Below are positions 888 to 48,543 of a DNA stretch of 48,543 nucleotides, piece by piece. Under the pieces are notes generated by a model. The model ran no database searches. It saw only the letters and a list, made by a program, of their open reading frames with translations, and was not told the DNA's origin. The stretch spans positions 1 through 48,543 of IMG/VR virus record IMGVR_UViG_3300036046_000009; one strand, written 5' to 3'. Source of the stretch: a virus. Positions within the stretch are counted from its first letter, which is position 1; each line of letters opens with the position of its first letter. Position numbers and translations under genes: made by a program.

Positions 888-936
888 GATTGAATCCTCT
901 GATAGGGGAGCGTTGATCCGTCCACGATGGACGGCA

Positions 937-1206: not shown

Positions 1207-1756
1207 TCCGCCTCCGCCTGAAGACTGCATGGAACCGCGGATAGGTCCTGCCGATGCCGGTAGGAAGCTTCTTGCCGTCCTGCTGGAGTGCGTTGCAGAG
1301 TTCCTGCACCCGAGGCCAGTCCGGCTTGACGAGCCCAGACTCAATAAGAGTCAACGGGACGCCGATGAACTGCATGAACTGCACGTACTCAGGGCTCTTC
1401 GGAGACGGCAAGATCGCTTCGATCTTGACGTCCGGCGTTGCAGACGCAAGACGTCCTCGGATCGTCATTGCCGTGTTCGGGTCCGTCAGAGAACGCTCTG
1501 TGAGCGTGACTGCAACGACTTGACCCGCCAGAGCCGCACGGGCGTCTGCCTCCTTGCGAAGGTTGTCGAACGTCTTGGCGATCTCACGAGCGAGGAAGCC
1601 TACGTCTGCAACGTCGGGAAGCTTGGTTCCCGCCTGTTGTAGCAGCGTCGAGACGTCCGCTAGGACAGCCTGGACGCTAGCCTGCAACGAGACCAGTGAG
1701 TCGTAGAGCTTCTCAAGTCGAGCAATGGGTGTCCCAGTTGATAGTTCGCTCAGCAT
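1196..1756 (-). CDS. Hypothetical protein, helical N-terminus
   Basis: A 186-residue protein starting MLSELSTGTPIARLEKL, with an AGGA-type ribosome site upstream. Residues 1-80 look like a long amphipathic helix or coiled coil (LEKLYDSLVSLQASVQAVLADVSTLLQQ). A mixed alpha/beta part follows, and a very basic tail (RRRR) ends the chain. The gene overlaps the upstream gene by 44 bases and the downstream gene by 11 bases, so the three are probably translated together. No catalytic motif is visible and the function is unknown. Confidence 0.6.
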   Translation of the reverse strand: MLSELSTGTPIARLEKLYDSLVSLQASVQAVLADVSTLLQQAGTKLPDVADVGFLAREIAKTFDNLRKEADARAALAGQVVAVTLTERSLTDPNTAMTIRGRLASATPDVKIEAILPSPKSPEYVQFMQFIGVPLTLIESGLVKPDWPRVQELCNALQQDGKKLPTGIGRTYPRFHAVFRRRRNET

Positions 1757-2036
1757 AAGTGCTATTCCTTGCGTCGAAGATGAGGAGGGGGAGCTTGTCG
1801 TACAACGCCGAGACAGCCGCACAGAGCAGACACAGAGTTGCTGCCTTGCCGGAGAGGCAGATCCAATCCGTGTCTGGATCGAACTTGTGCTCTTCGAGTG
1901 CGTCGCAGAACATTCGGACAGTCTCTTCTGTAGAAAGCGGATTGGCCCGTTGAGCGAGATTCACAATCTCTCCCCGCTCTCGAGCGGCAGTGAGATCGAA
2001 TTGCATAACGGGCTCTGGGAAGAAGACGCGAGGCAT
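1713..2036 (-). CDS. Hypothetical protein
   Basis: A 107-residue protein starting MPRVFFPEPVMQFD after a clear AGGAG site. It has a hydrophobic, Cys-rich central helix (WICLSGKAATLCLLCAAVSAL) followed by a strand-like LPLLIFDARN. The central segment is too interrupted to call a membrane span with confidence. It sits between the SNF2 helicase and another unknown gene, and overlaps the latter by 44 bases. No family was recognised. Confidence 0.55.
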   Translation of the reverse strand: MPRVFFPEPVMQFDLTAARERGEIVNLAQRANPLSTEETVRMFCDALEEHKFDPDTDWICLSGKAATLCLLCAAVSALYDKLPLLIFDARNSTYAERTINWDTHCST

Positions 2037-2063
2037 GGGATGGCTCCTAAGAGGCTTGACTAC

Positions 2064-4142
2064 TCACTCGCCGGCGAGTTCCGTGCTGAGGACTCGCTTG
2101 AGGATCTCGCGGACATCCTGGATTTGCAAGGCCATTTGGAGCTTGCCAACAACGCGAGCCCGGATCTCTTCATCAATGGAACCGGGGACAACGACGTCCG
2201 TGATGCGGACAGATGACTTGGTACCCTTGCGGTGAGCACGATCTTCCGCCTGCGAACGCTGCACGGCGGACCAATTGCACGAGAAGAAGATCTCGTGATC
2301 GCAATAAGTGTTCTGGGGTGGATCGGCGGTCGGCTCGTAGCCGAGCAGATTGAGTCCCGTGCCTGCCGTAGCAGGATTGCCGATGAAGACACGACAAGTA
2401 GGATCGTTGTTGAACCGCCAGACGGCTTGCTCTCGGTCATGCTCAGACGTAGCACCGTAGAAGGTGACACAGTCAATGCCCGCCTTCTTCAAGGCGGCGT
2501 CCAGGGCCTTGATGTCTTCGACGAAGACTGCCCAGACGATCGTCTTGCCGTTCGGATCGCGTCCTTCGGACTGTAGCATCTCGAGAACCGCCGCCACCTT
2601 TGGATTGAGATCGGGATCGATCTGCTCCACACGTGCGGGAGTACCCTGCTCCTCGTCCGCGTTCCAACGGACGTGCCCAGACGTGATCTGAGACAGCCGC
2701 AGGAGTTGCGTCAAGATGTGATCGACGGTGAGCGTATTGTCCATTGCCTCCTCCAGAACGATCGCGAGCTCGTCCCGCACCATCCGGTAGAACTCACGCT
2801 GCCGAGGAGTCATCTGAACTTCAAAGATGTCGTACGTCTTGTCAGGGAGAGCGAGATTCGCTTCCTTCTTCGTGATGGCGAAGGACAAACGTGCGAGACG
2901 CTCCTGAAGGAGCGGCACGCCGCGAATGCCGATGAGCCTCTGCACGCTTCCGCCTGATGCTGCCACAGACCTGAAGACACCGTGGAAGGAGCGGAAGTTC
3001 TCGAAGGACGAGAACCCAGACATGCCGTCAGCGAGGAACTCAAGCTGAGCGTAGAGGTCCATCGGAGTGTTTGTGATCGGCGTGCCCGACAAGATCATCC
3101 GCTGCCGCACGTTGGCGTCCCGCAGAGCGGCGACTGCCTTGTAGCGAGCCGTCCGCGTGTTCTTGACGTAGTGGGACTCGTCGAGCACGACAAGATCCCA
3201 TGGGAATGCCTTGAGAGCTCGGAGCGTAGACACGACACTGTCGTAAGAAATGATCGCGGCAGCCCAAGAGCAGTCCTTCTCGTCCCTTGCGACCTCGATG
3301 AGAGACGTGACACGCTCGACTTCCCCGCCGCGGAGCGAGACAACCTTGCCCGGGACGGTTGCGAACTTGCCGAACTCTGCTTCCCAGTTCGCACGGAGTT
3401 GCTTCGGACAGACGATCAAGACGCGGTACATGCCTGCGGGCAGACCGAGGAAGCGTCCTGCCCGCTTGCGAGCTGCCTCGAGACAGACGCGGTTGACCGT
3501 GACGGCAGTCTTGCCGGTTCCTTGCTCCATGAAGAGAGCGGCCATCTCGCGGTTGAGAAAGGCAGACAGTCCCACTCGCTGATACGGCAAGAGTGGAAAC
3601 TCGGGATGCTCGATGAAGTCTCGCGGCATCGCGGGCACGGTGCCCGCGATCTTGAACGCCGAGATCGTCTGGAGCGTCTTGGACGCTGTTGCGAAACGTG
3701 CAAGAAGGACTTCGTACCGCAGCTCCGCCTCTTGGTTGAGGAAGATGATGCGATCCTTGGGCCAACAGGACGCGATCACCAAGACGGTGAAGTCCGTGGC
3801 TCCGAACGTCCACTGTCCGTAGCCAGTAGTCTTCCGCTCTGGGATACGCTCCGCCCACGTCCTCGCGGCGGAGTTAGACGGCACCGCGTACGGAGAGGAG
3901 CTGAAGTCCCGTCCGGCAACGCGGATGCGAGTAGAGGGAACGTCCTTCTCAGGATCGAACGGATGCATCCGCCGTGCCTGAGCAACGAACCGTCCGCGAT
4001 CGTCCGTCTCGAGCGTGAGCCATTCGTCCTCGCGGAGGTGGATCGGACTCAGCAACGCACCCGTCGCCTCACTAAGAGGCTCGAGAACACGTTGCATGGA
4101 CGCTTCGGAGAAAGGAAGGCTGAGCTGGGATGCTGTAGTCAT
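2064..4142 (-). CDS. SNF2-family helicase/ATPase
   Basis: A 692-residue superfamily 2 helicase of the SNF2 type, an ATP-driven DNA translocase. An LLPYQRVG block precedes the Walker A motif MEQGTGKT (about 205-212). Walker B is VVLDESH (about 318-324). Motif III reads LSGTPITNT, and the C-terminal RecA lobe has ATAGTGLNLL and the QAEDRAHRKGT block typical of SNF2 proteins. Roughly 180 residues of unassigned sequence precede the ATPase core and may bind DNA or a partner. I chose the ATG at 4142 because AGGAG lies 10 bases upstream; a reading frame extends further 5' but lacks a ribosome site. Phage SNF2 proteins are usually linked to replication or recombination. The role here is inferred. Confidence 0.9.
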   Translation of the reverse strand: MTTASQLSLPFSEASMQRVLEPLSEATGALLSPIHLREDEWLTLETDDRGRFVAQARRMHPFDPEKDVPSTRIRVAGRDFSSSPYAVPSNSAARTWAERIPERKTTGYGQWTFGATDFTVLVIASCWPKDRIIFLNQEAELRYEVLLARFATASKTLQTISAFKIAGTVPAMPRDFIEHPEFPLLPYQRVGLSAFLNREMAALFMEQGTGKTAVTVNRVCLEAARKRAGRFLGLPAGMYRVLIVCPKQLRANWEAEFGKFATVPGKVVSLRGGEVERVTSLIEVARDEKDCSWAAAIISYDSVVSTLRALKAFPWDLVVLDESHYVKNTRTARYKAVAALRDANVRQRMILSGTPITNTPMDLYAQLEFLADGMSGFSSFENFRSFHGVFRSVAASGGSVQRLIGIRGVPLLQERLARLSFAITKKEANLALPDKTYDIFEVQMTPRQREFYRMVRDELAIVLEEAMDNTLTVDHILTQLLRLSQITSGHVRWNADEEQGTPARVEQIDPDLNPKVAAVLEMLQSEGRDPNGKTIVWAVFVEDIKALDAALKKAGIDCVTFYGATSEHDREQAVWRFNNDPTCRVFIGNPATAGTGLNLLGYEPTADPPQNTYCDHEIFFSCNWSAVQRSQAEDRAHRKGTKSSVRITDVVVPGSIDEEIRARVVGKLQMALQIQDVREILKRVLSTELAGE

Positions 4143-4179
4143 TGGAGGATACTCCTGTTGCTGTTTCTTTGAGTGTGGA

Positions 4180-4500
4180 TCAGGACCGGGGACCGAGGAT
4201 GTCTGTGAAGAGACACTCGAGAGCGTCAAGAGAAGCCATGAAGGACACGTCCTGGTTCCACGCGATGAGAGCCGCGTGAATCTTTGCGAGGGACGTCTTC
4301 TTCATGTTGATGGGCGTCTCGTCCTCGAGAAGACAATCCCACGTCCCGCCGACACGGCGTGTGAGAGTGAGACAGACTTCTCCCTCATGCTCCCCCGTCT
4401 CGTTGACGGCTTGAAGGAAGCACGTGTAGACGTTGTCCGTCCTGTCAATGACGATCTCGTCGCCGACAGAAGACTGAATGGTAATAGTGGGAACTGGCAC
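4180..4500 (-). CDS. Small hypothetical protein, GTG start
   Basis: A 106-residue protein starting with GTG (MPVPTITIQSSVGDEIVID), with GGAG 10 bases upstream. The first 60 residues look like a beta-rich fold, followed by a helix containing IHAALIAWNQDVSFMASLDALE. It is acidic overall. It is the first gene after a 320-base noncoding region with a promoter candidate and iterated heptamers (4537-4588), so it may be the start of the transcript that also covers the SNF2 gene. No family recognised. Confidence 0.65.
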   Translation of the reverse strand: MPVPTITIQSSVGDEIVIDRTDNVYTCFLQAVNETGEHEGEVCLTLTRRVGGTWDCLLEDETPINMKKTSLAKIHAALIAWNQDVSFMASLDALECLFTDILGPRS

Positions 4501-5688: not shown

Positions 5689-5834
5689 ATGTAAAACCGA
5701 TACTTACCAGTACACGCGGGGGACCTACTACCTACACCTTCTTTGAGATGTGAGTAAGTGTGCGTGTATGTGCGTGTGGTGCCTGCAATTAGGCGGGCAG
5801 GCCAGGACTTGCGGGTTGTTACACGTCGTGCTTA
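5689..5834 (-). promoter_or_regulatory. Conserved leader region, copy 1
   Basis: A 146-base noncoding gap upstream of the gene at 5688. On the coding strand it ends GGTAAGTATCGGTTTTACAT directly against the ATG. The same block, preceded by CCCCCGCGT and AAGGTGTAGG, occurs before the regulator gene near 29263. The gap also contains an AGGCGGGCAGGC fragment of the CCTAGG repeat family and a CACACGCACATACACGCACAC tract (split over 5758-5778). It probably carries a phage-specific promoter. No Shine-Dalgarno site is seen, so a leaderless transcript is possible. Confidence 0.5.
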
Positions 5835-6236
5835 CTACTTGGTAGCGTTTGGCTTTTCTCCTAGTGCCGCAAGTAGTTTCAACGCTGCCTTGAGAAGTTC
5901 TTGAGCCTCTTTCACGACACTCTCAGAACGCTCCACAGTCGCCTCGATACTCTTGTGCCGCTTCTCCATCTCCTCGACCAACAACTCCATGCGGAGCTCG
6001 GTCTTGAGAATCTTTGCCGTACGAGACGCGTCATACTTCGCGATCGCCCAGACAAACGCACCCGTAGTGAGAAGGCCAGTGACAAAGATCGGCAAGGAGA
6101 AGTCAATTTGATCGTGAGAGATGTGAGCGGGAGCTCCAAAAGCGGCAGCAGACATCATCAACAGATTCGATCCAACGGCGAGAATGCACAAAGCTCGGTC
6201 AATCACAGGGGAGTGCTCCTTCTGAAACGTGTCCAA
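5835..6236 (-). CDS. Two-span membrane protein, holin candidate
   Basis: A 133-residue protein with two hydrophobic segments, about residues 14-36 (RALCILAVGSNLLMMSAAAF) and 48-66 (LPIFVTGLLTTGAFVWAIA). The rest is charged and helical, likely a coiled coil (MELLVEEMEKRHKSIEATVERSESVVKEAQELLKAALKLL, split by a short break). It overlaps the end of the receptor-binding gene by 34 bases and is the last gene of the tail module. The topology would suit a holin or a pinholin-associated protein, but other small membrane roles are equally possible. Confidence 0.5.
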   Translation of the reverse strand: MDTFQKEHSPVIDRALCILAVGSNLLMMSAAAFGAPAHISHDQIDFSLPIFVTGLLTTGAFVWAIAKYDASRTAKILKTELRMELLVEEMEKRHKSIEATVERSESVVKEAQELLKAALKLLAALGEKPNATK

Positions 6237-7213
6237 AAGCGGTCAATGACATACGCTCGGTCCGTGGTGCCTGCGGACTTGAAGATCCCCGTGAAGTAGT
6301 CTACTGCACGTGTAGATGCAGTAGGGATGTTTGCGGTGCGAACTCCAATAGACGTGCCGTTCACAAATGCCTCGAAGGATGTTCCGGCTTCGTTGACGAC
6401 GAGTTTCAACCGATACCATCCCGCCGCCACCGTTGCTCCGGAGCCGTTTGTGATTCCCGTCACTCCGTTGTCGGACGTCGACAGATGCCACGCTCCACCG
6501 TTGATGTCGTCTCGGTAGCGGATCAAGACGTGATTCGTCGGGAGGTCTGTTGTATTGCCGTCTGCGAAGCCGACGACGATCGAGAATCGCTCAGAGCCCG
6601 TCGAGATGACTGGGATGTAGATGTCCCACTCCATCTCGACCTTGCCTTGTCCCATGTAGAGACGCGGCTGAGCTCCTGAGAGCCCTGAACGACCAGTCGT
6701 CGAAGTGCCAGTGTTGAACTGAGTAAGACCAATCCGGTTCATTCCTACAGTGGAATCTGGCTCGTAGGCTGCAGAGCTCGCACCCGTGCCGTTCGTGAAG
6801 CGAGTGACACCGCTTGTGAAGGACGTAGATTGTCCGAACTCGTCAGTCACGAAGAAGGTTCGGTAGTCACCGCGTCCCGTAGGGTGATCGATCCACTCCG
6901 TGCCGTCATAGAATGCAAACGTGTCCTCGTCTGCAACCCAGATGACCAAGCCCTCTTTAGGAGTGAAGAAGTACCATCCGGCAGCGTAGACCGTGATCTT
7001 GTTCGCTTGCCCGGTCCACGCACCAGTAGGCGAAGACCCGATCACGTAGCAGTCTCCGTCGGCTGGAGATCCGGGCGGCGTGTCGAGAGCAAAGTCCTTG
7101 ACGTTCATCCCGACGAACGCGTCCAAGAACGACAGAGCTTGATTGTGCGGGATGTACGCGGAAGACTGCCCATCGGCGATGAGAGGCAGGACGAGTCGAG
7201 GAGTGTCAGCCAT
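6203..7213 (-). CDS. DUF2793-type tail fibre / receptor-binding protein
   Basis: A 336-residue protein. The N-terminal 110 residues match the DUF2793 pattern seen in prophage and GTA tail proteins: PRLVLPLIADGQ, HNQALSFLDAFV, a PADGDCYVIG turn and TFAFYDGTEW. The C-terminal part (about 120-330) reads like a lectin-type jelly roll, with WDIYIPV, FSIVVGFADGN, WYRLKLVVNEAG and FEAFVNGTSIGVRT, the last typical of concanavalin A-like folds. It is immediately downstream of the central tail-tip gene (stop and start share 7213), so a host-recognition or adhesion role is likely. Sugar specificity cannot be read from the sequence. Confidence 0.7.
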   Translation of the reverse strand: MADTPRLVLPLIADGQSSAYIPHNQALSFLDAFVGMNVKDFALDTPPGSPADGDCYVIGSSPTGAWTGQANKITVYAAGWYFFTPKEGLVIWVADEDTFAFYDGTEWIDHPTGRGDYRTFFVTDEFGQSTSFTSGVTRFTNGTGASSAAYEPDSTVGMNRIGLTQFNTGTSTTGRSGLSGAQPRLYMGQGKVEMEWDIYIPVISTGSERFSIVVGFADGNTTDLPTNHVLIRYRDDINGGAWHLSTSDNGVTGITNGSGATVAAGWYRLKLVVNEAGTSFEAFVNGTSIGVRTANIPTASTRAVDYFTGIFKSAGTTDRAYVIDRFWTRFRRSTPL

Positions 7214-34073: not shown

Positions 34074-34602
34074 GCCAGCCTCGACTTTCGACGAAGAACG
34101 GACGCACACTGGCGTCCTGGAAAATGACGTGGGCCTGATCGCCGCGTGCCTCTCGCAACGTCTTCGCTGAGAGGCACCACGGAGAGATCAAGGCCCGACA
34201 AGACTTGTCGTACTCGTTGTCCCGATGCCATCCTCGGCTGCTCCAATGAGCCAGACCGGCGATCGGGAACTCCGCGACGCAGGCAGTGTCCGGTGTCAGG
34301 GGAACGTCAAGGAGCTGCGGAGGGTAGACGTTGTCGGCAAGGTAGATCATGACAGGATCATCTCCCTTGACGCACGCTTTGAGAGCTCCGCAGAGCTCCG
34401 GCTCGAACTGGTGGAGAGTCCGCCATCCCATCCGCTTGCAAACGGCGTTGATGGTTCCAAACTCCCGGCACACAATCTCGGTGTCCTTGCCGAGTTGATC
34501 GACGAGACGATGAAGAGCACTCCGGCCGTCGTCGTCTACCATGAGCAGAGGCTTCATCGGCATCCGTGTCGCGAGTCCGCCGGCGAGGATTACCTTTCGC
34601 AC
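33949..34602 (-). CDS. Sugar-phosphate nucleotidyltransferase
   Basis: A 217-residue NTP-transferase. The signature GGLATRMPMKPLL (residues 8-20) is the nucleotide-binding loop of glucose-1-phosphate thymidylyltransferases and relatives. VMIYLADNVYPP provides the metal-binding Asp, and ESRGWHDIGTPEGFSDLW is the classical late motif that contacts the sugar. It starts with GTG after a strong GAGGAG site, overlapping the TAGT stop by 13 bases. It should make an NDP-sugar, or an NDP-alcohol as LicC does, for the glycosyltransferases beside it. Confidence 0.87.
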   Translation of the reverse strand: MRKVILAGGLATRMPMKPLLMVDDDGRSALHRLVDQLGKDTEIVCREFGTINAVCKRMGWRTLHQFEPELCGALKACVKGDDPVMIYLADNVYPPQLLDVPLTPDTACVAEFPIAGLAHWSSRGWHRDNEYDKSCRALISPWCLSAKTLREARGDQAHVIFQDASVRPFFVESRGWHDIGTPEGFSDLWRSDPQADWMATLASLRSPDPSPRIPEGR

Positions 34603-35384
34603 AAGTCACGCTCCTCCCATGCCTTCCGCCAGTTGACGCGGAGGTCTGGTGCGGTCGCCCCGTCCCATTGACGCCATCCAGCCGCCGACTTGTCGACGGC
34701 CTCACAGAACGCACCGTGCTCCTGAAGGAACGCTTCGCGACACTCGCGAAGAGCTGCCTCTGTGCGGTAGACCGAGACGCCACCGGCAGCATTCGTTTCG
34801 CTTGTGTCTGTGACGTACCAGTTGGAGACGGCGTTCGGGTATCCACGCCGCAGCAAGGACAGCGTCACGTGGAAGTCTTCCCAGAAGGGATACTTGTCGA
34901 AGCGGATGCCTTCATGCTGCAGGATGTCCGTACGGACGCCGAAGGACCGCATCTGGCGGTAGTTGTATCGCCAGTGACGATCTTGGAGTTCCTGATTGAA
35001 GCCGCGTGCTCCGAGCCCGACCATTGCTCGCTCGTCCATTGCTTGGTTCATCAGAACCATCGCTGCCGCGATGTCGTCGGGCGTAGCCTGTTGGAGCTTT
35101 GCATTGGTACGGAACGCCCAATCGTCGACGCGACGGCAGAAGCGAAGATCGTCGTCGAAGAAGAACAAGCGATCGTACTGGCTACTGAGCTCGTCCACTG
35201 CCGCTTGCCGGAACTTCGGAGCTCCGATCTCGTCCATGAGGATCATGGGACAGCCGAACTCGGCGTACTTCTCAGCCTCCGAACGGTGTACAACGAGCGT
35301 TGTCATCTCCTTCAGCTCTTGCGGGAAAGCCAAGAACGTGTTCATGCGGTGGGATCGTCCAAGTGATGGGATCACAATTCGCAT
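34590..35384 (-). CDS. TAGT-like GT-A glycosyltransferase (DNA base)
   Basis: A 264-residue protein. The opening MRIVIPSLGRSHRMNTF and the following VHRSEAEKYAEF match my memory of TET-associated glycosyltransferases (TAGT), which modify 5-hydroxymethylated bases in phage DNA. The donor site DxD is in FFFDDDLRF (77-79), and YPFWEDFHVTLSLLRRG near 165-181 looks like the catalytic acceptor block. No TET/JBP oxygenase is present in the window, so the hydroxymethyl acceptor would have to come from a modified dNTP. An ATG with GGAGTAGGAA upstream is a secure start. Confidence 0.75.
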   Translation of the reverse strand: MRIVIPSLGRSHRMNTFLAFPQELKEMTTLVVHRSEAEKYAEFGCPMILMDEIGAPKFRQAAVDELSSQYDRLFFFDDDLRFCRRVDDWAFRTNAKLQQATPDDIAAAMVLMNQAMDERAMVGLGARGFNQELQDRHWRYNYRQMRSFGVRTDILQHEGIRFDKYPFWEDFHVTLSLLRRGYPNAVSNWYVTDTSETNAAGGVSVYRTEAALRECREAFLQEHGAFCEAVDKSAAGWRQWDGATAPDLRVNWRKAWEERDLCER

Positions 35385-35387
35385 TTC

Positions 35388-35723
35388 CTACTCCATGTTC
35401 GAAGACACTGGTGGACCGAATCCCTGGAGCACGTCTTCGATTGTGGTGCTGCCAGCGATGAGACAATGCAGAGAGTTAGGGGCTCCCAGACAACCCGCCA
35501 CGAAGGCCTCCACGCGGAGCCATCCCGTTCTTCCGTCTGGAAGCAAGAAAATGATGTTGTCCGCGATCATCGTGAACGGAATGCTCAACCAGAGTCGCAC
35601 CGTCCCGTTGTGGGACAGATAGACGTCCACGCGAATCGAGGAGGGATGTATGGAGACGTCCGTCCTTGATGAACGCCTTCGTGGTCTTCCACCCGTGGGA
35701 TGTGAGTCGGCGGACTTTGGCAT
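35388..35723 (-). CDS. Hypothetical protein in the modification island
   Basis: A 111-residue protein starting MPKSADSHPTGGRPRRRSS (an earlier TTG overlapping the upstream stop is also possible). The first 30 residues are basic and likely disordered. The rest looks like a beta-rich domain (VDVYLSHNGTVRLWLSIPF, MIADNIIFLLPDG). A small DNA-binding or accessory factor would fit, but nothing diagnostic is present. It sits between the helical-domain protein and the TAGT gene, with 3 bases to the latter. Confidence 0.55.
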   Translation of the reverse strand: MPKSADSHPTGGRPRRRSSRTDVSIHPSSIRVDVYLSHNGTVRLWLSIPFTMIADNIIFLLPDGRTGWLRVEAFVAGCLGAPNSLHCLIAGSTTIEDVLQGFGPPVSSNME

Positions 35724-35740
35724 GATGTGAGACTGCTTTC

Positions 35741-36667
35741 TCAAGAGGCGTGATGAGTCTTACGATCTGCATAGCGACTTCTCGTCTTTCCTTGTCCAAG
35801 ACGGACACGTTCGTACTTGTCGAACTCGCAGAGACAATGCTCGATCTCGCGGAGTTCGAACGGTGGCCACAAAGGATCATCGTCCGGCTTGACGGCAAGC
35901 GGATGATGTCTGCGGACCACCAGCGGGAGCTCCTTCTTGGCACGAGCCCAGAGCAGGATCATCGTGCCGACATTGGGCTCGTAGCCGAGACGGATCATTC
36001 CTCGGCGGCATCCGGGACCTACGTTTGCCCATTCGTAGCAATCGACTGGCTCGAAGAGCACACTCCAACGCAGATCGCTTGCCATCTCGTAGGCAATGAA
36101 CGGACCGCAGTAGCGGAAGAGCCTGAGCTCCTCAAACGCGGTGCGGATGGACATTGACTCGTAGATGGTCCTTGCCAGCGTCTCACGCTCTTCCCAGACA
36201 CGTTGGATCACAGGGATGTGAGCCTCGTGCTTAGGAGTAAGCGTGTCTCCTCCGTTGGTCATGTGGGCACCAGTGTAGAGCTGGAGCCCTCTCCTGTAAC
36301 GGTAGCGGATGTAGGAGTAGAGCGTATCCGGGGTGGACGAGAACCCGTACTCCTTAGCGTGGATGTCCAGGTTGAACATCCTGTACCAGAACGTGTTCCA
36401 CACGATCAGTCCGGCAGTCTTCCAGTCTGGAGTCCGCCGGCGACTAACGTCCCAAAGATCAACGTGCCGTTCCTCCATCTTGCGAAGAGCGATCGTCCCG
36501 CGATCGAGCTCTCGGAACACGTTGGTGAACTTGTACTCGTGCAGGATCGGGTCCGTCGTCCAAGGACGTGGCAGTCCCTTGTCACGCTTGCACCAGATCT
36601 CGTGACGCTTGCCCATCCAGGCGAAGAAGTCTTCTACGCGACTTGATCCGGGTTTGATTGGGTCCAC
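35741..36667 (-). CDS. 5-hmdU DNA kinase helical-domain protein (aGPT-Pplase-like)
   Basis: A protein of about 308 residues. The stretch VEDFFAWMGKRHEIW, GLPRPWTTDPILHEYKFTN and VFRELDRGT (residues 11-60) is the family hallmark of the 5-hmdU DNA kinase helical domain, also called alpha-glutamyl/putrescinyl thymine pyrophosphorylase, from phages with hypermodified thymine such as SP10 and phiW-14. The rest (HAKEYGFSSTPDTL, GGDTLTPKHEAH, GCRRGMIRLG) is consistent. No P-loop is present, so ATP binding must come from another protein, perhaps the kinase at 43462. The GTG at 36667 is my choice; longer forms lack a ribosome site. It likely recognises or activates the modified base in DNA. Confidence 0.75.
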   Translation of the reverse strand: MDPIKPGSSRVEDFFAWMGKRHEIWCKRDKGLPRPWTTDPILHEYKFTNVFRELDRGTIALRKMEERHVDLWDVSRRRTPDWKTAGLIVWNTFWYRMFNLDIHAKEYGFSSTPDTLYSYIRYRYRRGLQLYTGAHMTNGGDTLTPKHEAHIPVIQRVWEERETLARTIYESMSIRTAFEELRLFRYCGPFIAYEMASDLRWSVLFEPVDCYEWANVGPGCRRGMIRLGYEPNVGTMILLWARAKKELPLVVRRHHPLAVKPDDDPLWPPFELREIEHCLCEFDKYERVRLGQGKTRSRYADRKTHHAS

Positions 36668-36756
36668 TTGAGAAGTCCCCAGAGGAGGTAGAGAAAGAGG
36701 GCTGCCGCGAACAGATACCAAGAACGCTGGAACAGGACGCCGACGAGAGTTGTCAC
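36634..36756 (-). CDS. Tiny membrane protein, GTG start
   Basis: A 40-residue protein. I place the start at a GTG overlapping the upstream stop (GTGA), the same coupling used twice nearby. Nearly the whole chain is hydrophobic (LVGVLF, then WYLFAAALFLYLLWGLLKW), giving one membrane helix and a short polar tail. A longer form from an ATG at 36840 is possible. It could be a superinfection-exclusion or lysis-control peptide, but no function can be assigned. Confidence 0.45.
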   Translation of the reverse strand: MTTLVGVLFQRSWYLFAAALFLYLLWGLLKWTQSNPDQVA

Positions 36757-37136
36757 TCCACAAAGGGCGAGACAGACTCCCCGCAGGAGTGCAAATTCAC
36801 AACGGACACGATGCGTAGTACGACTTTGCATTTGGAACACTTTCCTTCGTAGAAGATCTCATGGACTTTGACGGTTCGGAGCTCCGTGACAGTGGAGCAG
36901 ACACAGATCTCAACGGGAGCCGGCACAGACGCTGGTGCTTGCGGATTGCTGATTGCCTTCAGCAGCTCTGTCTCTGGGAAAGTCGGCCCGTACCGCTCCA
37001 TCAGACAATCGAGACAGGGCAACGTCAAACTCTCCCTGAAGTTCCCGTTCCTGATGTGACCGAGTCCTGGAGCGAAGACAAAGCGGATGTCGTCCGTGCG
37101 GTAACTGCCGGGAGCGAGTGGAATGCAGTAGGTCAT
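36753..37136 (-). CDS. Cys-cluster protein, paralogue B
   Basis: A 127-residue protein starting MTYCIPLAPGSYRTDDIRF, its ATG overlapping the upstream stop (ATGA). It has CLDCLMERYG, then CVCSTVTELR, and FYEGKCSKCKVVLRIVSVV near the end, so two CxxC pairs that may bind zinc. The last block is clearly related to the upstream gene (FYEGVCGRCKKTLRVVSAV). The pair are tandem duplicates. Function unknown; a zinc-dependent nucleic acid or regulator role is possible. Confidence 0.65.
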   Translation of the reverse strand: MTYCIPLAPGSYRTDDIRFVFAPGLGHIRNGNFRESLTLPCLDCLMERYGPTFPETELLKAISNPQAPASVPAPVEICVCSTVTELRTVKVHEIFYEGKCSKCKVVLRIVSVVNLHSCGESVSPFVE

Positions 37137-41106: not shown

Positions 41107-43029
41107 CTAGCGGAGCTTGCCCTCCACGCCGTTGTACGCCTCCTCGGAGCACGCTCCTGCCCAAGACGTAGGGCTGACGCCCAGTCCTACGCGGATCGGG
41201 ACAGAGAAACGTACAAGAGGCGTCTCGCAGATCGAGATGATCCTTTCATGGACAGACGCGTCTAGCAAACGATCAAGAGGACACTCGAAGAGGAACTCGT
41301 CGTGGACGTTGGCAACGATCCTGACACTTGCATCTTCAAGGAACCGATCTGTTGCAAGAGCGACAAAACGATCCTTGATGATGTCCATTGCTCCTCCCTG
41401 GACAATTGAGTTGAACGCTTTGTGAACTGCCTTCAACGGCAAGTGCCTCCGCCTCTTGTAAGCGTTGAAGACCCATCCTCTCCGCTTGCAGACGTTTGCC
41501 GCCTCAACGGAGACACGCTTGATGCCGGGCATCCGTTCGTGGTAGGACGCGTAGATGTACGCGGCTCTTCGTTCGCACTCCGCCTCAATCTCCTCTTGCG
41601 TGAAGGACGGATGCTCCTCGCAGACCTCCGTGAGGATGGCAGGGTCACCAAGAAGCATTTGTAGCACCCTACGCTTCCCGGCTCCGAAGCCGACACCGAA
41701 GTTGATGAACTTTGCCTTCTTCCGCATCCCCTTCGTGACGCCTTCCTTTGGGACGCCGTACATGAGGGACGCGGTGAGAGTGTGGAAGTCTGTGTCCGGA
41801 TCATTGACGTACGCGTCGATGACGTCTTGATCGCCAGCGTAGTGTGCGATCAGTCGGAACTCGATCTGAGAGTAGTCGCACGAGATGAAGCCGAAGCCTG
41901 GACGAGGATGTATCAGGAGCTTGGAGCGGGAGTTCTGTTGCTGGATGTTCGGATCGCGGCAAGACATGCGTCCGGTCCGCACCAGTTGATTGTAGAACGG
42001 GTGGATCACGTCCTCGGAGTCCCGCAGCTCTTGGAAGGGGACAAGAAAGAGCCCGTTGTACTGAGACTCTACGCGGTACTTCCTGATCGCACGCACCAGA
42101 GCCAAGAGCCGCTTGTTCCCGCGGACGGCGGGGAACTCCTCGTACATAGCCAGTGCCCGCTTGTTGAACGTAGGCTTACCAGTCACGTCGTGGTAAGCGA
42201 GCACGGGTAGATCGTACTTGACAACGAGCGTCTCGTAGATCCATTGTGGGCTATTAGAGAACTCTTCGCCGGCGAGTTGCGAGATGCGTGTCCCCAAGTC
42301 GATCAGGAGCTTGATCGTCCTCAGTTGCTCCTTCTTGACCTCTTGCACGTCTACGCGGAACCCGTGCATCTCCATCTCGTGCAAGACGGAGGTGAGTTGG
42401 ATCTCCCTCTTGATCAGCTCTTGCATGTCTTCGGGGAGCTCCCGCTGCAAGTGCCGGTAGAGAAGTCTGTTGCCGAGAACGTCCTCGCAAGCGTACTCCC
42501 CGAGGACGCTTTGCGGGCAGTCGGCAAAGTCTTCGGACTTGACACGTGCGAGATAGGCGATCCGCTTCTCCTCGCCCTCCATTGCAAGGCCAAGCCATTC
42601 TCGGCACAGAGCCTTGAGACTGTGTCCGATCCGGTCCGTGTCTAGCATCTTCGCCAGCGTCAGAGTGTCGACGAGACGCCGATTTGCCTTTGCTCCCGTT
42701 TCTCGCCGCGTGAAGACGGCGTCGAACTTGACGTTGTGATTGATCCAGTCCCCGGAGCCCGTAACAAGATCGCAGAGCCAGCGTCTGAATGGCTCGATCT
42801 CCACAGACGGTCCGAAAGTGTTATGCCGGACAGGAACGTAGTACGCGTCTGCATGATCGTCTGCTGTGATCGCCACTCCGCAGATCTGGTCCTTCCACGG
42901 AAAGCCTCCGGCACGCTTCGGAGTGCCGGAGCGTGTCTCAAGGTCGAGAAAGATCTCCCTCGCTCCCTTGAAGTCGGGAAGCTCAGAGGCCTCGTCGATT
43001 AGGACACTGTTTTCAGAGAGGCGTAGCAT
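41107..43029 (-). CDS. Family A DNA polymerase
   Basis: A 640-residue replicative polymerase with 3'-5' exonuclease. Exo I is FLDLETRSG (Asp29, Glu31). Polymerase motif A is CDYSQIEFRLI, motif B GMRKKAKFINFGVGFGAG (with Phe at the position corresponding to Phe762 of E. coli Pol I), and motif C ANVHDEFLF. There is no 5'-3' exonuclease domain, as in T7-like polymerases. I start at the ATG at 43029; its first 31 bases overlap the deaminase gene. It would copy DNA with the modified dNTPs made by its upstream neighbours. Confidence 0.9.
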   Translation of the reverse strand: MLRLSENSVLIDEASELPDFKGAREIFLDLETRSGTPKRAGGFPWKDQICGVAITADDHADAYYVPVRHNTFGPSVEIEPFRRWLCDLVTGSGDWINHNVKFDAVFTRRETGAKANRRLVDTLTLAKMLDTDRIGHSLKALCREWLGLAMEGEEKRIAYLARVKSEDFADCPQSVLGEYACEDVLGNRLLYRHLQRELPEDMQELIKREIQLTSVLHEMEMHGFRVDVQEVKKEQLRTIKLLIDLGTRISQLAGEEFSNSPQWIYETLVVKYDLPVLAYHDVTGKPTFNKRALAMYEEFPAVRGNKRLLALVRAIRKYRVESQYNGLFLVPFQELRDSEDVIHPFYNQLVRTGRMSCRDPNIQQQNSRSKLLIHPRPGFGFISCDYSQIEFRLIAHYAGDQDVIDAYVNDPDTDFHTLTASLMYGVPKEGVTKGMRKKAKFINFGVGFGAGKRRVLQMLLGDPAILTEVCEEHPSFTQEEIEAECERRAAYIYASYHERMPGIKRVSVEAANVCKRRGWVFNAYKRRRHLPLKAVHKAFNSIVQGGAMDIIKDRFVALATDRFLEDASVRIVANVHDEFLFECPLDRLLDASVHERIISICETPLVRFSVPIRVGLGVSPTSWAGACSEEAYNGVEGKLR

Positions 43030-43475
43030 GAGAGGATCCCAGCGAAGATCGGAGCAGCGAGTTCCCACACTTCGCCCTCTTGAAGGACGAAGATGCCTGC
43101 ATGCGTCAGCCATTGGACGCCGCGTGGATCATGCGTCGTGAAGGACGAATACAAGACGGCGATGACGCTTTGTGACGCGATGATTGCATTGGCACAATTT
43201 GTGCAGGGCGAATAGCCAACGCAAAGGATGCCTTTCTGCGTGCGTGGGACCTTGAGAAGCAGAGCCACCTCTGCGTGGATGCAACCGCAGTTCCCGATCT
43301 CACCAGAGCACGGGCCTCCGACCGGTCCGTTCATTGCTGACGCAAGTTCCACAAGACGCCCGTCTTGCAAGCCGCAGAGAACGGCACGGACTTTCTTCCG
43401 CTTGCATCCGCACGGAGTCTCGTCCATCTTCATGACGTCGTGATACGACGCCCACAATGTGTCACGAGAGTGCAT
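42999..43475 (-). CDS. dCMP/cytidine deaminase
   Basis: A 158-residue zinc deaminase. The active site has CIHAEVALLL (His-Ala-Glu) and GYSPCTNCANAII (PCxxC), the classical zinc ligands and proton shuttle. A CGCKRKK segment and other Cys lie in the N-terminal part. It should convert dCMP to dUMP for pyrimidine synthesis. It lies between the kinase and polymerase genes with short overlaps on both sides, part of the nucleotide-pool operon. Confidence 0.88.
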   Translation of the reverse strand: MHSRDTLWASYHDVMKMDETPCGCKRKKVRAVLCGLQDGRLVELASAMNGPVGGPCSGEIGNCGCIHAEVALLLKVPRTQKGILCVGYSPCTNCANAIIASQSVIAVLYSSFTTHDPRGVQWLTHAGIFVLQEGEVWELAAPIFAGILSCYASLKTVS

Positions 43476-43986
43476 CTAGACGCATCCTCCATTTGGAGAC
43501 GATCTGCCCAAGCCCGATAGCTCCGCAGAAGACAATCTGCTCACTATGCGGAACCGTGACGTCGATGCAGATGTCGGCGTACGGCACGAGAGTGTTGAAG
43601 CGAATCGCAGCCTGAGTCAAAGCGTGCTCGTCAAACATCTCGTCCTTCGGATTCGTTCTGAGATGCCGGACGTAGGCCTCTATGTTGGAGGCGTGGACGA
43701 GCACGATCAATCCACCAAGAGCACGCACCCACGACGAGACGATCTCAAGACGAGGGATCGTCAAGACGTCCCTGTGATACGCAATCCCACCGAAGTGGAA
43801 TCGGTCTTGGACTACTGGCACGTCCCTCTCCAGATAGTTCCGGCGAATGATTTCCTTGTACCCTTGGAAGAAATCGAAGTCCTCCGTAGGACGCGTCATG
43901 TGGGCGTAGTGGGCTCCCATCACCCTGCAGACTTCTCTCGCCAGCGTGGTCTTGCCTACGTTGTCTGGTCCTTCAATCACTAACAT
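43462..43986 (-). CDS. Deoxynucleotide (thymidylate-like) kinase
   Basis: A 174-residue P-loop kinase: IEGPDNVGKTTLA (residues 4-16) is the thymidylate kinase type Walker A. VVQDRFHFGGIAYH holds the DR-type substrate motif and lid residues follow. The length is typical of dNMP kinases. Its ATG overlaps the end of the synthase-like gene by 14 bases. In this context it could phosphorylate a hydroxymethyl-dNMP, as T4 gp1 does. Alternatively it is the ATP-binding partner of the helical-domain protein at 35741. Confidence 0.85.
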   Translation of the reverse strand: MLVIEGPDNVGKTTLAREVCRVMGAHYAHMTRPTEDFDFFQGYKEIIRRNYLERDVPVVQDRFHFGGIAYHRDVLTIPRLEIVSSWVRALGGLIVLVHASNIEAYVRHLRTNPKDEMFDEHALTQAAIRFNTLVPYADICIDVTVPHSEQIVFCGAIGLGQIVSKWRMRLDALS

Positions 43987-44962
43987 TGTGGTTCTCCCAA
44001 TGACGGCGGAGTGTGGGATTGAGAAGTCTCTTTGCCGCTCTGATACCTACGTCCTTCGTCGCGGCCATGAGACACAAATTGTGACCCATCTGAGCAGGAG
44101 TGCCGGCAGAAGAAAGTTCGCCGGCACATCCGGTATTCTTGCGGTTGTAGTCCTCCAGATCTACTGCCGCTTGAATCCGCTCAAGGACGTGATGCGGGTT
44201 GTAGGGCACGTAGGACATCGGAGCCACGTCGAACGTTCCTGTGTGGACTCCCGCAAGAGCACGTTGGTAGTGCTTCTCATAGAGATGCATCGAGCCAACT
44301 TGGTGATGGTAGAAGCCGAGATCGACGTCCAGCATGTTCGCTACCAGCATCTGAAGGTGGCAGAAGCAGAACACGTCGTACGGCAAACCTAGCCAAGCGT
44401 CGTTGCTCCGCATCGTGGTGATCAGATTGAGCTTCCCATTCCGCAGAAGGAACTGCAGACTGAGCGTGCAAGGGATGTCTTTGCGATTCTTCGCCCGCAC
44501 GTGGATCAAGTCCGATGCTCTGAAGAGCGGAAGGACAGCCTGCCGCGAGTTCGGGTCAGCCTTGAGAGCATCCACAAGTGTCGACAGAGGCGTCATCTTG
44601 CTCAGCGTGGTCGTTGCGGATCTCCACTGCCAGTCAAGGTCAGTCTTACCGAAGATTCGTCCTCCGTACGCACCGTACGCTTCTCCGTCGTCGGCGAACT
44701 GAGCGTACTGCGGAGCGTAGTGGACGATCCGGTCTATTGTCAGCTCACCGGACATGTACCAAAGGAACTCGCCGGCAGCGTAAGACATGCTGAGACGCCG
44801 CTCGGGGTTGAACATGAAGCAGAAGGTAGGGTCCATGAGACGTCCGCTCCAGCCGACGATCTCCTTGGACGGTCCTGCTCTTGAATGAATGTCCTCCCCA
44901 TCTCCAAGAATCGAATCACAGACGTCGACCCACATCTCGTCTACATAATCGTAAGTGTTCAT
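43973..44962 (-). CDS. Thymidylate synthase-family enzyme, likely dCMP-type
   Basis: A 329-residue member of the thymidylate synthase family. The catalytic Cys is Cys165 in RKDIPCTLSLQF; RSNDAWLGLPYDVF supplies Arg185, Ser186 and Asp188. Counting from the catalytic Cys, Asp196 (LPYD) falls exactly where E. coli synthase has Asn177, the residue that reads uracil. Asp at this site is known from T4 dCMP hydroxymethylase, and Asn-to-Asp mutants of synthase accept dCMP. So dCMP hydroxymethylase or methylase activity is more likely than dTMP synthesis. It is coupled by ATGA to the MazG-like gene. Confidence 0.85.
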   Translation of the reverse strand: MNTYDYVDEMWVDVCDSILGDGEDIHSRAGPSKEIVGWSGRLMDPTFCFMFNPERRLSMSYAAGEFLWYMSGELTIDRIVHYAPQYAQFADDGEAYGAYGGRIFGKTDLDWQWRSATTTLSKMTPLSTLVDALKADPNSRQAVLPLFRASDLIHVRAKNRKDIPCTLSLQFLLRNGKLNLITTMRSNDAWLGLPYDVFCFCHLQMLVANMLDVDLGFYHHQVGSMHLYEKHYQRALAGVHTGTFDVAPMSYVPYNPHHVLERIQAAVDLEDYNRKNTGCAGELSSAGTPAQMGHNLCLMAATKDVGIRAAKRLLNPTLRRHWENHNVSD

Positions 44963-45471
44963 TGCTGTTGCACCTTGTTCTTGTCGGTCAGTCTGGTTGC
45001 ACGTGCGAGAATGCCTTTGATGTCAGGCGGCGAGTAGTTCGGTCCCTTGTCCCGCATCCGAAGATTGTCCGCGGTGCGGACTTGCTTGGTCATGTTGGAG
45101 CGGTGCGTGTCGATGAAGAGCTCCTTCCATGGAAGCCCGTACGTCTCAGCGAGTCCGATGACAACGTAGAGCAGGTCTGCAACGCCGTCTGCAAACCCGA
45201 TCGTGTGCCCGCAGAGAGCGGCGGAGATGAGCTCTCCCAGCTCCTCAAGGATTAGATGCAGCCGATACGAGAAAAGATGCTCTTGTCCAGGCTCCTCGCC
45301 ATAGACTGCCAGGAGCTTCGCCTTGTCTCGGCAGCGGCGGACATACTCGCTGTCCATGTCTCGCCAGAAGATTGGTTGGTCCAGCGGGAAGGAATGCTTC
45401 TCGTGGAATGCTCTTGGCCCGTCGAGAGCGATGAGCAGACCAGAGTTTGACAAGGTGCTGTCGTCAATCAT
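44959..45471 (-). CDS. MazG-like nucleotide pyrophosphohydrolase
   Basis: A 170-residue all-alpha NTP pyrophosphatase. The metal-binding acidic residues are in LILEELGELISA (Glu76, Glu77, Glu80) and FADGVADLLYVVIGLAETYG (Asp95, Asp99). It is closest to the MazG/dUTPase-dCTPase class by pattern. With the dCMP-type synthase and a kinase it could clear dCTP or dUTP and feed monophosphate substrate, like T4 gp56. Overlaps link it to the primase and the synthase-like gene. Confidence 0.85.
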   Translation of the reverse strand: MIDDSTLSNSGLLIALDGPRAFHEKHSFPLDQPIFWRDMDSEYVRRCRDKAKLLAVYGEEPGQEHLFSYRLHLILEELGELISAALCGHTIGFADGVADLLYVVIGLAETYGLPWKELFIDTHRSNMTKQVRTADNLRMRDKGPNYSPPDIKGILARATRLTDKNKVQQQ

Positions 45472-48320
45472 CAGAATTTCTCCTTCTGTGAAACCTCAGC
45501 CGTCGTGGGCATGGAGGTTCTGATCCTTTTCAAGAGGTCAATGAATCCCGGTGTCTTGATGTACTCGCGTCCACTCCGGTAGACCGCGTGCTTCCTAACA
45601 AGGAAAGACAAGAACTTCTGGGCGTCTCCAGCGTCACAGTCTCCCCAGTCTTCAATGTCTGAACGTGCAATCCGATCCGTGTGAAGAATGAGTTCGCAGA
45701 AATCTCTAGGGTGCTTGAGCGAGCGGATCATCCGCTGGATCACGTCTGGGTCGACCAGCGAGACAGCGAACTGCTGAGCCCTAGAGTACTCTGCGTAGCC
45801 GAAGACCTCGTCCCCGTAGACCTTGCGGAGCCATGCCGTGATGTAGAGCACGTGCTCCTTCTTGACAAGGAGGACAGATGGGTCTTCGGGATCGTGTGAG
45901 AAGAGCCTTGCTGCAAGTGCAGCAGCGAGCCGAGCGAGCTTGAGCTTTGTAGTTCCTCGATCGATGAGCGGCAACGCGTCTGTGAACTCTTCGCAGAGCT
46001 TACTGGCCTCCTCCATTGCACAGAGCTCCGCGTCTCGTGTAAACTGGACTTGATCCGGCTTTCGTGTCCACGCCCACAAGACCAACTTCCGGCAAAGAGG
46101 CCCGGAGAACACGGGTTCCTCATTGGAGCGTTGCAGCAAGAACTCGTTGATCTCGCGAGCGTTCACTTGCCGAGACGAGACAACAAGTGCAACGTCGAAA
46201 CGGCGGATGTCTTCGAGTCCTGGGATCAATTCGTGAATGGCCTCTACGCCGAAGTTGAACGCTGCCACCGCCCTGTCTGATCGCGGATTGGAGATCATCA
46301 CAAGACGCGTCCTCGCATGAGCTCTGCGTCTTTCGATCTTAGGCAGTTCTGCTACGCCCGAAGACCGCATGTCCGTGAGACGTGCGATGATCTCAGGAGC
46401 TGCACCTTTCACCTCCTCCATGAAGAGCAACCGCCCGTCGTGCTGAGGGATCATTCCCCAAGTAACGATGTAGCGAGTCCCATGCTGTTGTAGCCCTCCA
46501 AGGAGTCCGGCGACGGAAGCGTTCTTACAGTCCACTCTCTCCCCGAGACCGTAGTGCTCCATGAGACGCTGGGACACCTCTGACTTACCCTGAGCAGAGT
46601 CTCCAACGACAAGAGCATTGATCCATCCACGATGAGTCTGGTCCTCAAAGCGGATATACATGGGGGAGTGATAAGCAAGATCGATGCAGAAGTGCAAGTC
46701 CGGTCGCTGGCAGATGCGTGTGACATGGAGAGACAAGTCCGTGTAGATCGCGTGCAGCCTTTCCTCAATGGGGCCACAGAACACGTCTAGGCTCTTGACG
46801 TCTTCGGCGGTGAGCGTGAACGCGGCAAGCGAGTCTTCCGTTCTCGACAGTTCGTTGAGCAGCAAGACAGCGTGCTGCGTCCTAGGATCAGGATGGACCC
46901 TGCCTTGGAACACGTAGGGCGAATTGAGGTCCGGCAGTACAGGCGAAACAATGAACGCTGGAACTACAACGTGCTCACGGTGTCCTCCTCCGATCTGGAG
47001 TTGGGGCGAGACTCTCACGTCGTAGATGTTGTAGGACGATTCGATCGTGAAGGACGCCACCTTGCACGGTGGGATACGGAGGGCCTCTCGGATGGCTTCC
47101 CGTTGCTTTGCAACGGGAGCCTCGATCATTGTCAAGAGGCCAATCGACGTACCCTTGATCGTGAGTGCAACTGTGCCGGTAGTCTCGTCCTCGTCTTCGG
47201 CTTGCACGGGACAGATGTGGCAGTTCGGCTGGTCCCTAGAACACGAGACACGGATCCGCTGAGGAACGATGTAGGGCGTCTCGTCCAGCGAGGTAAGTGT
47301 TCCGCTGAAACAGATCGTCTTCCCCATGTTCGCTGCGGACGTTGTCTCTGACAGTCGGACCTGAAGGACAGGACCCTCTTCGTCCGATGCAAGCTCTTGT
47401 GGGGTGTAGACGTCCGCAGACTCCATGAGAGCAAGGAGCTCAGGAGCCTTCGCTCCGAGCTTCCCAACGAAGTCATTGACATCCCCCTTCGGGAAGCGTG
47501 CCTTGTCTAGTGGCAGGCGGATGATCTTCACGGACGCGGCAACGTGAAAGACCTCCCGAGCGATCTTCCTAGCCGCAGCCTTCCCGCCGGAGTCGACGTC
47601 CATGCAGACGTAGACGTCCTTGTCTTTGAAACGTGCCGTCCACGCGGTTTCCCACGCTCCTTCGCCTGCCGTTGCAGACACTGCTCCGATCTTGTGCTTT
47701 GCTAGCAGTGAACCAACGACCAGAGCCTTCATCTCGCCGCCACAGATCCAGACGTTGTTCCCACGCTTGATCTGCTCTACTTGATACAGAGCTGGCTTGC
47801 TGAAACCCTTCCGGTTGAGCATCTTCTCGTGCGAAGGAGCTCCTGGCAAGTAGGCACGGATGTTGAGCACCTCCCCAGACTCGCCAAAGACAGGGATGGT
47901 GATCCGGCCGTCGTGGTAGCCGAGCTTTGCCTTGCGGATCATCTCGTCCGTCAGACCGCGATCCCGCAGAGCCTTCAACAACGGACCCGCCGAGAAGACC
48001 TTTGACGCGTACCTCTCAACGATCTCTGGCGACAGCGATCGGACTGTCTGCAGATCGTATCTCGTTCCCAGATCTGCAAGGACAACCTTGCGTTCGACGC
48101 GGGCGATGTGGGCCAAGAGCGAGACAATGTCGCCCTTCGCATTGCATCCGGCCGCGTGGCACCGCCAGAGGTTCTTCGCGACGTTCAACGACGCTGACGC
48201 TGTCTTGTCTCCGTGGACAGGACAGCAGATTCCAACCTCCTCGTCCCCCTTAGGAGTGTAATCCCACCCGGCCCGTTGCAGCTCCGCAAGAGCGTTGATC
48301 TTCTCGATAGCAATAGGCAT
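45471..48320 (-). CDS. Primase fused to MCM-like AAA+ helicase
   Basis: A 949-residue protein. Residues 30-65 form a CHC2 zinc finger (GICCPVHGDKT, WRCHAAGCNAKGD). Residues 185-260 are a TOPRIM catalytic core (WICGGEMKAL with Glu196; CMDVDSGG 239-245). Residues 320-510 look like an MCM-type OB region with its own Cys cluster (VSCSRDQPNCHICP). The AAA+ part has Walker A GDSAQGKS (573-580), Walker B LLFMEEVKG, sensor 1 VMISNP (674-679) and arginine finger DIRRFD (704-709), all MCM-like. A winged-helix tail follows. It is the likely phage replicative primase-helicase. Confidence 0.88.
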   Translation of the reverse strand: MPIAIEKINALAELQRAGWDYTPKGDEEVGICCPVHGDKTASASLNVAKNLWRCHAAGCNAKGDIVSLLAHIARVERKVVLADLGTRYDLQTVRSLSPEIVERYASKVFSAGPLLKALRDRGLTDEMIRKAKLGYHDGRITIPVFGESGEVLNIRAYLPGAPSHEKMLNRKGFSKPALYQVEQIKRGNNVWICGGEMKALVVGSLLAKHKIGAVSATAGEGAWETAWTARFKDKDVYVCMDVDSGGKAAARKIAREVFHVAASVKIIRLPLDKARFPKGDVNDFVGKLGAKAPELLALMESADVYTPQELASDEEGPVLQVRLSETTSAANMGKTICFSGTLTSLDETPYIVPQRIRVSCSRDQPNCHICPVQAEDEDETTGTVALTIKGTSIGLLTMIEAPVAKQREAIREALRIPPCKVASFTIESSYNIYDVRVSPQLQIGGGHREHVVVPAFIVSPVLPDLNSPYVFQGRVHPDPRTQHAVLLLNELSRTEDSLAAFTLTAEDVKSLDVFCGPIEERLHAIYTDLSLHVTRICQRPDLHFCIDLAYHSPMYIRFEDQTHRGWINALVVGDSAQGKSEVSQRLMEHYGLGERVDCKNASVAGLLGGLQQHGTRYIVTWGMIPQHDGRLLFMEEVKGAAPEIIARLTDMRSSGVAELPKIERRRAHARTRLVMISNPRSDRAVAAFNFGVEAIHELIPGLEDIRRFDVALVVSSRQVNAREINEFLLQRSNEEPVFSGPLCRKLVLWAWTRKPDQVQFTRDAELCAMEEASKLCEEFTDALPLIDRGTTKLKLARLAAALAARLFSHDPEDPSVLLVKKEHVLYITAWLRKVYGDEVFGYAEYSRAQQFAVSLVDPDVIQRMIRSLKHPRDFCELILHTDRIARSDIEDWGDCDAGDAQKFLSFLVRKHAVYRSGREYIKTPGFIDLLKRIRTSMPTTAEVSQKEKF

Positions 48321-48337
48321 TCTGTTTCCCGAGCAAG

Positions 48338-48371
48338 CCTCCCTCTGGGGCCCTCACGCCCCAGAGGGAGG
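48338..48371 (-). terminator. Strong hairpin at the contig junction
   Basis: A perfect 14-bp stem (CCTCCCTCTGGGGC with its complement) and a 6-base loop CCTCAC. It lies between the end of the SSB-like gene and the primase-helicase start, after circular closure. The left end of the window begins in its loop. It may be a terminator, or mark the physical ends. Confidence 0.65.
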
Positions 48372-48543
48372 GGAAGAAGAGTCCGATGATCAGAACTGTC
48401 CGTCGGTGGAGGTGGTCTCCTCCGTACGGTCGTCCCCGTCGACAGTGAGACGACGCTGATCGTAGGCATCCTTCAGCTCGAGGTACCGCGTGCGATGAGC
48501 GTCCACACGCTCAGACGAGATGGTGGGAGGCACACCAGGATGG
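48349..48543. repeat. Terminal direct repeat, right copy
   Basis: Matches 1-198 except that one TCC unit is missing around 48417-48423. It supports a circular map of about 48.35 kb. The length of the repeat may simply reflect assembly overlap, so true physical ends cannot be fixed from the sequence. Confidence 0.9.
48390..48543 (-). CDS. 3' end of the SSB-like gene, duplicate at the contig end
   Basis: The C-terminal 50 or so codons of the gene at 42-887, cut off by the window end. The acidic tail has one Glu fewer (TEETT instead of TEEETT). It is not a second gene but the same locus seen at the other end of the circle or terminal repeat. Confidence 0.85.
   Translation of the reverse strand, partial: HPGVPPTISSERVDAHRTRYLELKDAYDQRRLTVDGDDRTEETTSTDGQF

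Follow-up and report, generated by a model that had tools for sequence, protein, structure and literature searches.

Gene and domain layout

The window, the whole stretch of 48,543 nucleotides that was analysed (IMG/VR record IMGVR_UViG_3300036046_000009), carries one uninterrupted open reading frame on its minus strand at 45471-48320. The frame starts with ATG, encodes 949 amino acids and has full-length homologues, and this full-length form is kept across dozens of relatives. Coordinates of its parts are given on the same strand (-). Conservation was read from an alignment of 50 full-length sequences, which comprised the window protein plus 49 relatives taken from public viral contigs.

The protein begins with a CHC2 zinc-binding domain (residues 30-92, 48045-48233), followed by a DnaG-type primase core with TOPRIM (residues 113-300, 47421-47984). 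Next comes an MCM N-terminal tier with an OB fold and a zinc site (residues 316-500, 46821-47375), which is covered by the VIA-align match to 9nuk_A. The MCM AAA+ ATPase domain (residues 535-835, 45816-46718) was assigned by profile, profile-profile and structural comparison. Residues 886-936 (45513-45665) show a helix-helix-two-strand order in the models and were tentatively assigned as a winged-helix-like part.

The primase half

The CHC2 domain was detected with PF01807 (5e-8; 33.1 bits against a cut-off of 24.9). Its ligands are near invariant in the family alignment, with C33 and H36 in 49/50 and C54 and C59 in 50/50 sequences. The TOPRIM score of the window protein lies below the Pfam cut-off (19.5 vs 22.1); the acidic residues E196, D241 and D243 are invariant (50/50). 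When the 50-sequence profile was searched against the PDB, its first third matched Aquifex DnaG (2au3) at 2e-23 over both domains, and other DnaG chains and T7 gp4 chains were matched as well. Judged by its CHC2 ligands, the TOPRIM Glu and DxD and the DnaG profile, the primase half is a DnaG-type TOPRIM primase. An earlier note on this DNA had placed CHC2 and TOPRIM within the first 260 residues; both domains are there, and the TOPRIM part extends to about residue 286. A defence reading, suggested by a PADLOC RTasDnaG-like match, was rejected, as that match reflects the TOPRIM part only.

The ATPase half

All motifs that had been read in the second half are present, and their key residues are conserved in 50/50 sequences. 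The zinc site of the OB tier consists of the cysteine cluster C360, C367 and C370 together with a fourth cysteine, C419. Walker A (GDSAQGKS, residues 573-580, 46581-46604) contains the invariant K579 and aligns with all six archaeal MCMs used for comparison. Walker B (residues 631-636, 46413-46430) ends on the catalytic E636. Sensor 1 (ISNP, residues 676-679, 46284-46295) carries N678 and the arginine finger (RRFD, residues 706-709, 46194-46205) carries R707, which is also shared by all aligned archaeal MCMs; E636, N678 and R707 are each present in 50/50. Two further MCM elements, the helix-2 insert hairpin (residues 605-623, 46452-46508) and the pre-sensor-1 beta hairpin (residues 655-670, 46311-46358), were colinear with MCM in HMMER alignments. 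Both are seen in the predicted model, the former as two strands and the latter as a hairpin, and K661 of the pre-sensor-1 hairpin is conserved in at least 90% of the family. Close to the sensor-2 region, K794 (45939-45941) is invariant in the phage family at a position where archaeal MCMs have Gly or Ala. Sensor 2 may be shifted by about one helical turn in the phage family.

The Pfam MCM model (PF00493) scored the window protein alone at 14.8 bits, below its cut-off of 23.3. Relatives exceeded this cut-off with 27.3, 24.0 and 27.7 bits and a cousin fused to an archaeo-eukaryotic primase (AEP) with 49.7 bits, and 36/50 family sequences matched at E <=0.01. Bacterial control genomes also scored above the cut-off, so this model alone is unspecific. 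Family profiles were searched against the PDB. The last two thirds of the full-length 50-sequence profile matched Mcm6 (4e-8) and SsoMCM (1e-6). A profile of the C-terminal part retrieved 49 MCM-family chains, with Mcm6 best at 9.9e-9 and SsoMCM at 2.5e-7; the first non-MCM chain appeared at E 0.64, and HPr kinase and ClpX were found at E 0.6-1. With hhalign, the family aligned to a six-sequence archaeal MCM alignment over 543 columns with a probability of 99.7% and an E-value of 2.3e-24.

As a control, single sequences of other ATPases from Escherichia coli were compared. ComM, DnaA, RavA, DnaB and ClpX scored at most 2 bits against the family profile (DnaB -3.4 bits), and single archaeal MCMs scored 8 to 55 bits. 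The hhalign probability of the same controls was at most 0.1; these were single sequences against the six-sequence MCM alignment, and we put weight on the single-sequence bit scores. In the all-Pfam scan of the window protein with E up to 1, MCM was the only ATPase family listed, and SF3 was not among the matches. PF03796 (DnaB_C, RecA-fold) had no match in the window record. Thus none of the competing placements covered by the DnaB and DnaA controls and by the all-Pfam scan, SF3 included, found a match.

We corroborated these results by structure prediction. The full-length model had a pLDDT of 89.5 and a pTM of 0.66, and the MCM part modelled alone reached a pLDDT of 91.8. VIA-align superposed the full-length model on SsoPfMCM (9nuk_A) with Z 31.5 and an rmsd of 4.9 over 464 residues (315-846), covering the OB/zinc tier and the AAA+ domain. 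The MCM part alone aligned to an archaeal MCM with Z 30.0. Identity in the structural alignment with archaeal MCM is 14%. Structure searches listed MCM chains only, and the absence of other families from these lists is not proof against them. In searches with both the full-length model and the MCM part, the structural match starts only at residue 313-320, equivalent to about residue 103-104 of the archaeal MCM in 6mii; the primase thus appears to occupy the position of the A domain. Towards the C-terminal end, the secondary structure fits a winged helix and hhalign reaches column 616, and the structural alignments end near residue 850.

Sequence profile, profile-profile alignment and predicted structure, across the whole MCM core, bore out the MCM-style ATPase that the earlier note had proposed. 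As far as sequence and model can tell, the ATPase half is a member of the MCM family with a zinc-bearing OB N-terminal tier and an AAA+ domain.

Relatives and a sister clade with another primase

A conserved-motif scan of IMG/VR gave at least 285 confirmed relatives, the best 80 of which were kept; for most viral-contig records completeness is unproven. Among isolate phages, the fusion is present in Krampusvirus and further phages of Microbacterium, in Arthrobacter phage Wollypog, Bacillus phage BSTP8, Weizmannia phage Youna2 and Paenibacillus phage SV21, and their proteins are annotated 'DNA primase' or 'DNA primase/helicase'. The Krampusvirus-type proteins (Microbacterium, Wollypog, BSTP8, Youna2) have the same architecture, belong to the same family and are 28-30% identical to the window protein over most of its length. 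Their records label them primase or primase/helicase only and leave the MCM identity unstated. The architecture had been called unusual; given at least 285 relatives, the fusion is widespread and that description needs qualifying. A genome scan for host or prophage copies, done with one single pattern, found one distant relative on a Gastranaerophilales MAG contig (L114:3684-6536). Together with the protein of SV21 (L011) it forms a divergent sister TOPRIM-MCM pair on long branches, and this pair is without most of the four OB-tier zinc cysteines.

In Bacillus phage vB_BboS-125 and some 20 viral contigs, the MCM body is the same and the primase is an AEP. The AEP domain (PF01896) lies N-terminally in vB_BboS-125, L093 and L108, and it was not found in the window protein in the all-Pfam scan. 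Compared with residues 314-926 of the window protein, the vB_BboS-125 MCM part has 26.7% identity. This sister clade substantiates the remark that some MCM-like phage helicases are linked to AEP primases. In a tree of the MCM part, phage and archaeal proteins were separated with 100/100 support, and the AEP-type proteins formed a single clade (100/100). The AEP clade was nested within the TOPRIM type in nearly all bootstraps of this tree, whose sampling began from TOPRIM queries. In an AU test, a single TOPRIM clade was not rejected (p 0.55), so the direction of the swap between TOPRIM and AEP is not fixed. Read from these sequences, the primase type on a shared MCM body has been exchanged at least once.

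The AEP-MCM architecture is already known from BcMCM of a Bacillus cereus prophage (PMC4538821, PMC5862659, where McGeoch & Bell 2005, Samuels 2009 and Sanchez-Berrondo 2012 are cited), for which 3'-5' helicase and primase activity are reported (PMC4538821). BcMCM, by description, and the vB_BboS-125 protein, by sequence, likewise have an N-terminal primase and a C-terminal MCM helicase, comprise about 1000 aa and belong to tailed phages. They differ from the window protein in the primase, which is an AEP in the former and a TOPRIM/DnaG primase with a CHC2 zinc finger in the latter. Our literature searches for TOPRIM or DnaG together with MCM in phages returned AEP-MCM reports only. They covered the relevant literature in part, and an earlier mention of TOPRIM-MCM is possible. 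The fusion of MCM and primase in phages is thus known with AEP, and the TOPRIM form appears to be undescribed in the literature searched.

Genomic context

The primase-MCM gene stands first in a block of replication and nucleotide genes, which also encodes a MazG-like pyrophosphohydrolase, a member of the thymidylate synthase family, proteins resembling dTMP kinase and dCMP deaminase, and DNA polymerase A. The polymerase gene, with a 3'-5' exonuclease, lies downstream at 41110-43113(-) (PF00476, 7e-49; PF01612, 9e-10). PolA is present in 24/30 phage records with such fusions, and Wollypog has a DnaE-like polymerase instead. DnaB_C (PF03796) was above cut-off in 0/30 of these records, with one 10.6-bit match; this model leaves some possible replicative helicases uncovered, and the window also has a helicase of the SNF2 type. 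A Pfam SSB was found in 1/11 records and in none of the window's proteins. In Youna2 (W02, 50062-51780) and BSTP8 (W06, 5704-7092), PolA is in two pieces. The C-terminal part is encoded in another frame, several hundred bases further downstream; the gene may be split or interrupted by an insertion.

Two regions of the window, 34593-36763 and 43002-44962, hold a gene set for hypermodified thymine. It includes a 5-hmdU DNA kinase (35744-36763; PF18723, 5e-42), a TET-associated glycosyltransferase (34593-35384; PF20691, 2e-12) and the thymidylate-synthase-family, dTMP-kinase-like and dCMP-deaminase-like genes. As to the thymidylate-synthase-family gene, a neighbour in one relative (L008) carries the annotation 'pyrimidine hmase'. 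From its gene content, the phage may replace or decorate thymine. In three relatives (L002-L004), the gene for the SNF2-type helicase is located upstream of the primase-MCM gene, at a distance of a few kb; in the window it is at the far end, at 2067-4229(-). This position (1-4229 vs 45471-48543) fits a circularly permuted genome cut between the two genes. A terminal overlap of the window, as expected for a closed circular genome, was sought and not found.

Discussion

T7 gp4 joins a CHC2 zinc finger and TOPRIM primase to a hexameric helicase that follows it in one chain, and the window protein shares this order. The motors are different, as the T7 helicase has a RecA fold and runs 5'-3' on the lagging strand, whereas the window protein has an AAA+ MCM. 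With archaeal MCM (SsoMCM, SsoPfMCM) it has in common the OB/zinc tier, the AAA+ domain with helix-2 insert, the pre-sensor-1 hairpin and the arginine finger. The archaeal proteins lack a primase and differ in the sensor-2 region; in the window protein the primase appears to stand in the position of the MCM N-terminal A domain. We consider the TOPRIM-MCM protein to be probably a single-chain primase and replicative helicase belonging to the phage itself. The 30 records, among which no DnaB was above cut-off and 24 carry PolA, support the helicase as the phage's own replicative one and do not prove it. The invariant K794 at a Gly/Ala position of archaeal MCMs speaks against this reading.

Other readings were weighed against this one. 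It is very improbable that the ATPase is merely MCM-like and belongs to another AAA+ or RecA-type group, such as ComM/Mg-chelatase, MoxR/RavA, DnaB, DnaA or SF3. A weak Mg_chelatase match of the divergent Gastranaerophilales relative (E 0.0099) and the unspecific behaviour of PF00493 would suit such a group, but the single-sequence controls did not score, and MCM-specific parts beyond the P-loop, namely the zinc OB tier, the helix-2 insert and the pre-sensor-1 hairpin, are present and aligned. We also regard it as quite unlikely that the primase half has no priming activity and only binds DNA or has a structural role, with host DnaG as the primase. Degenerate primase domains do exist, for example in animal Twinkle, and the TOPRIM score of the window protein is sub-threshold; decay would nevertheless not leave invariant TOPRIM acidic residues and near invariant CHC2 ligands.

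Still unlikely, to a lesser degree, is an accessory or initiation/restart enzyme, acting in origin melting, fork restart or recombination-dependent replication, with a host DnaB-type helicase unwinding the main fork. Many phages borrow the host helicase, and recombination genes (RecA-like, RecB/Cas4-like exonuclease) lie near the primase-MCM gene in several relatives. For BcMCM, a role in leading-strand re-initiation has been suggested (PMC4538821). Against such a role stand the co-occurring replicative polymerase of the phage, the lack of a phage DnaB above cut-off in the same records and the fusion to a primase with an intact active site, as in T7 gp4.

In the TOPRIM-MCM protein, a short linker connects a DnaG-type primase, made of zinc finger and catalytic core, to the MCM helicase, at the apparent position of the A domain. 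By analogy with MCM biology, and in line with what is reported for BcMCM, the protein would form a homohexameric ring around the leading-strand template and travel 3'-5' with the N-terminal tier first, the polarity that the earlier note had held possible. The excluded lagging-strand template would then exit near the zinc domains of this tier. A primase in the place of the A domain could prime the excluded strand directly, and the fused primases at this exit would supply RNA primers to the PolA-type polymerase, or to a DnaE-type one in some relatives. Translocation 3'-5' by the window protein is inferred from homology, and lagging-strand priming from the position of the primase. The pTM of 0.66 leaves the relative orientation of primase and MCM uncertain, and the geometry is therefore a model. 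The proposed placement resembles that of Pol alpha-primase on the eukaryotic CMG; in yeast and human replisomes, primase is positioned on the N-tier side that leads, over the channel between the MCM zinc domains by which the lagging-strand template exits (PMC10501992).

Taken further, these proteins could represent a widespread type of phage replisome, a proposal to which we give even chances. In it, a bacterial-style RNA primase would be covalently attached to a 3'-5' MCM ring, on the side that leads at the fork, and prime the excluded strand, a CMG-like placement would have been reached independently, and TOPRIM and AEP would be interchangeable on one MCM body. Relatives occur in isolate phages that infect Bacillus subtilis and Microbacterium foliorum, which makes the system testable in the laboratory. 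TOPRIM primases are known with 5'-3' helicases, which occupy the strand that needs priming. In the window protein, such a primase is joined to a member of a 3'-5' helicase family that runs on the opposite strand, an archaeal/eukaryotic-type motor in a bacterial virus, and unrelated primases would be exchangeable on one helicase. If active, the fusion would offer a one-protein system for the coupling of priming to an MCM motor, which is otherwise studied in the large eukaryotic replisome.
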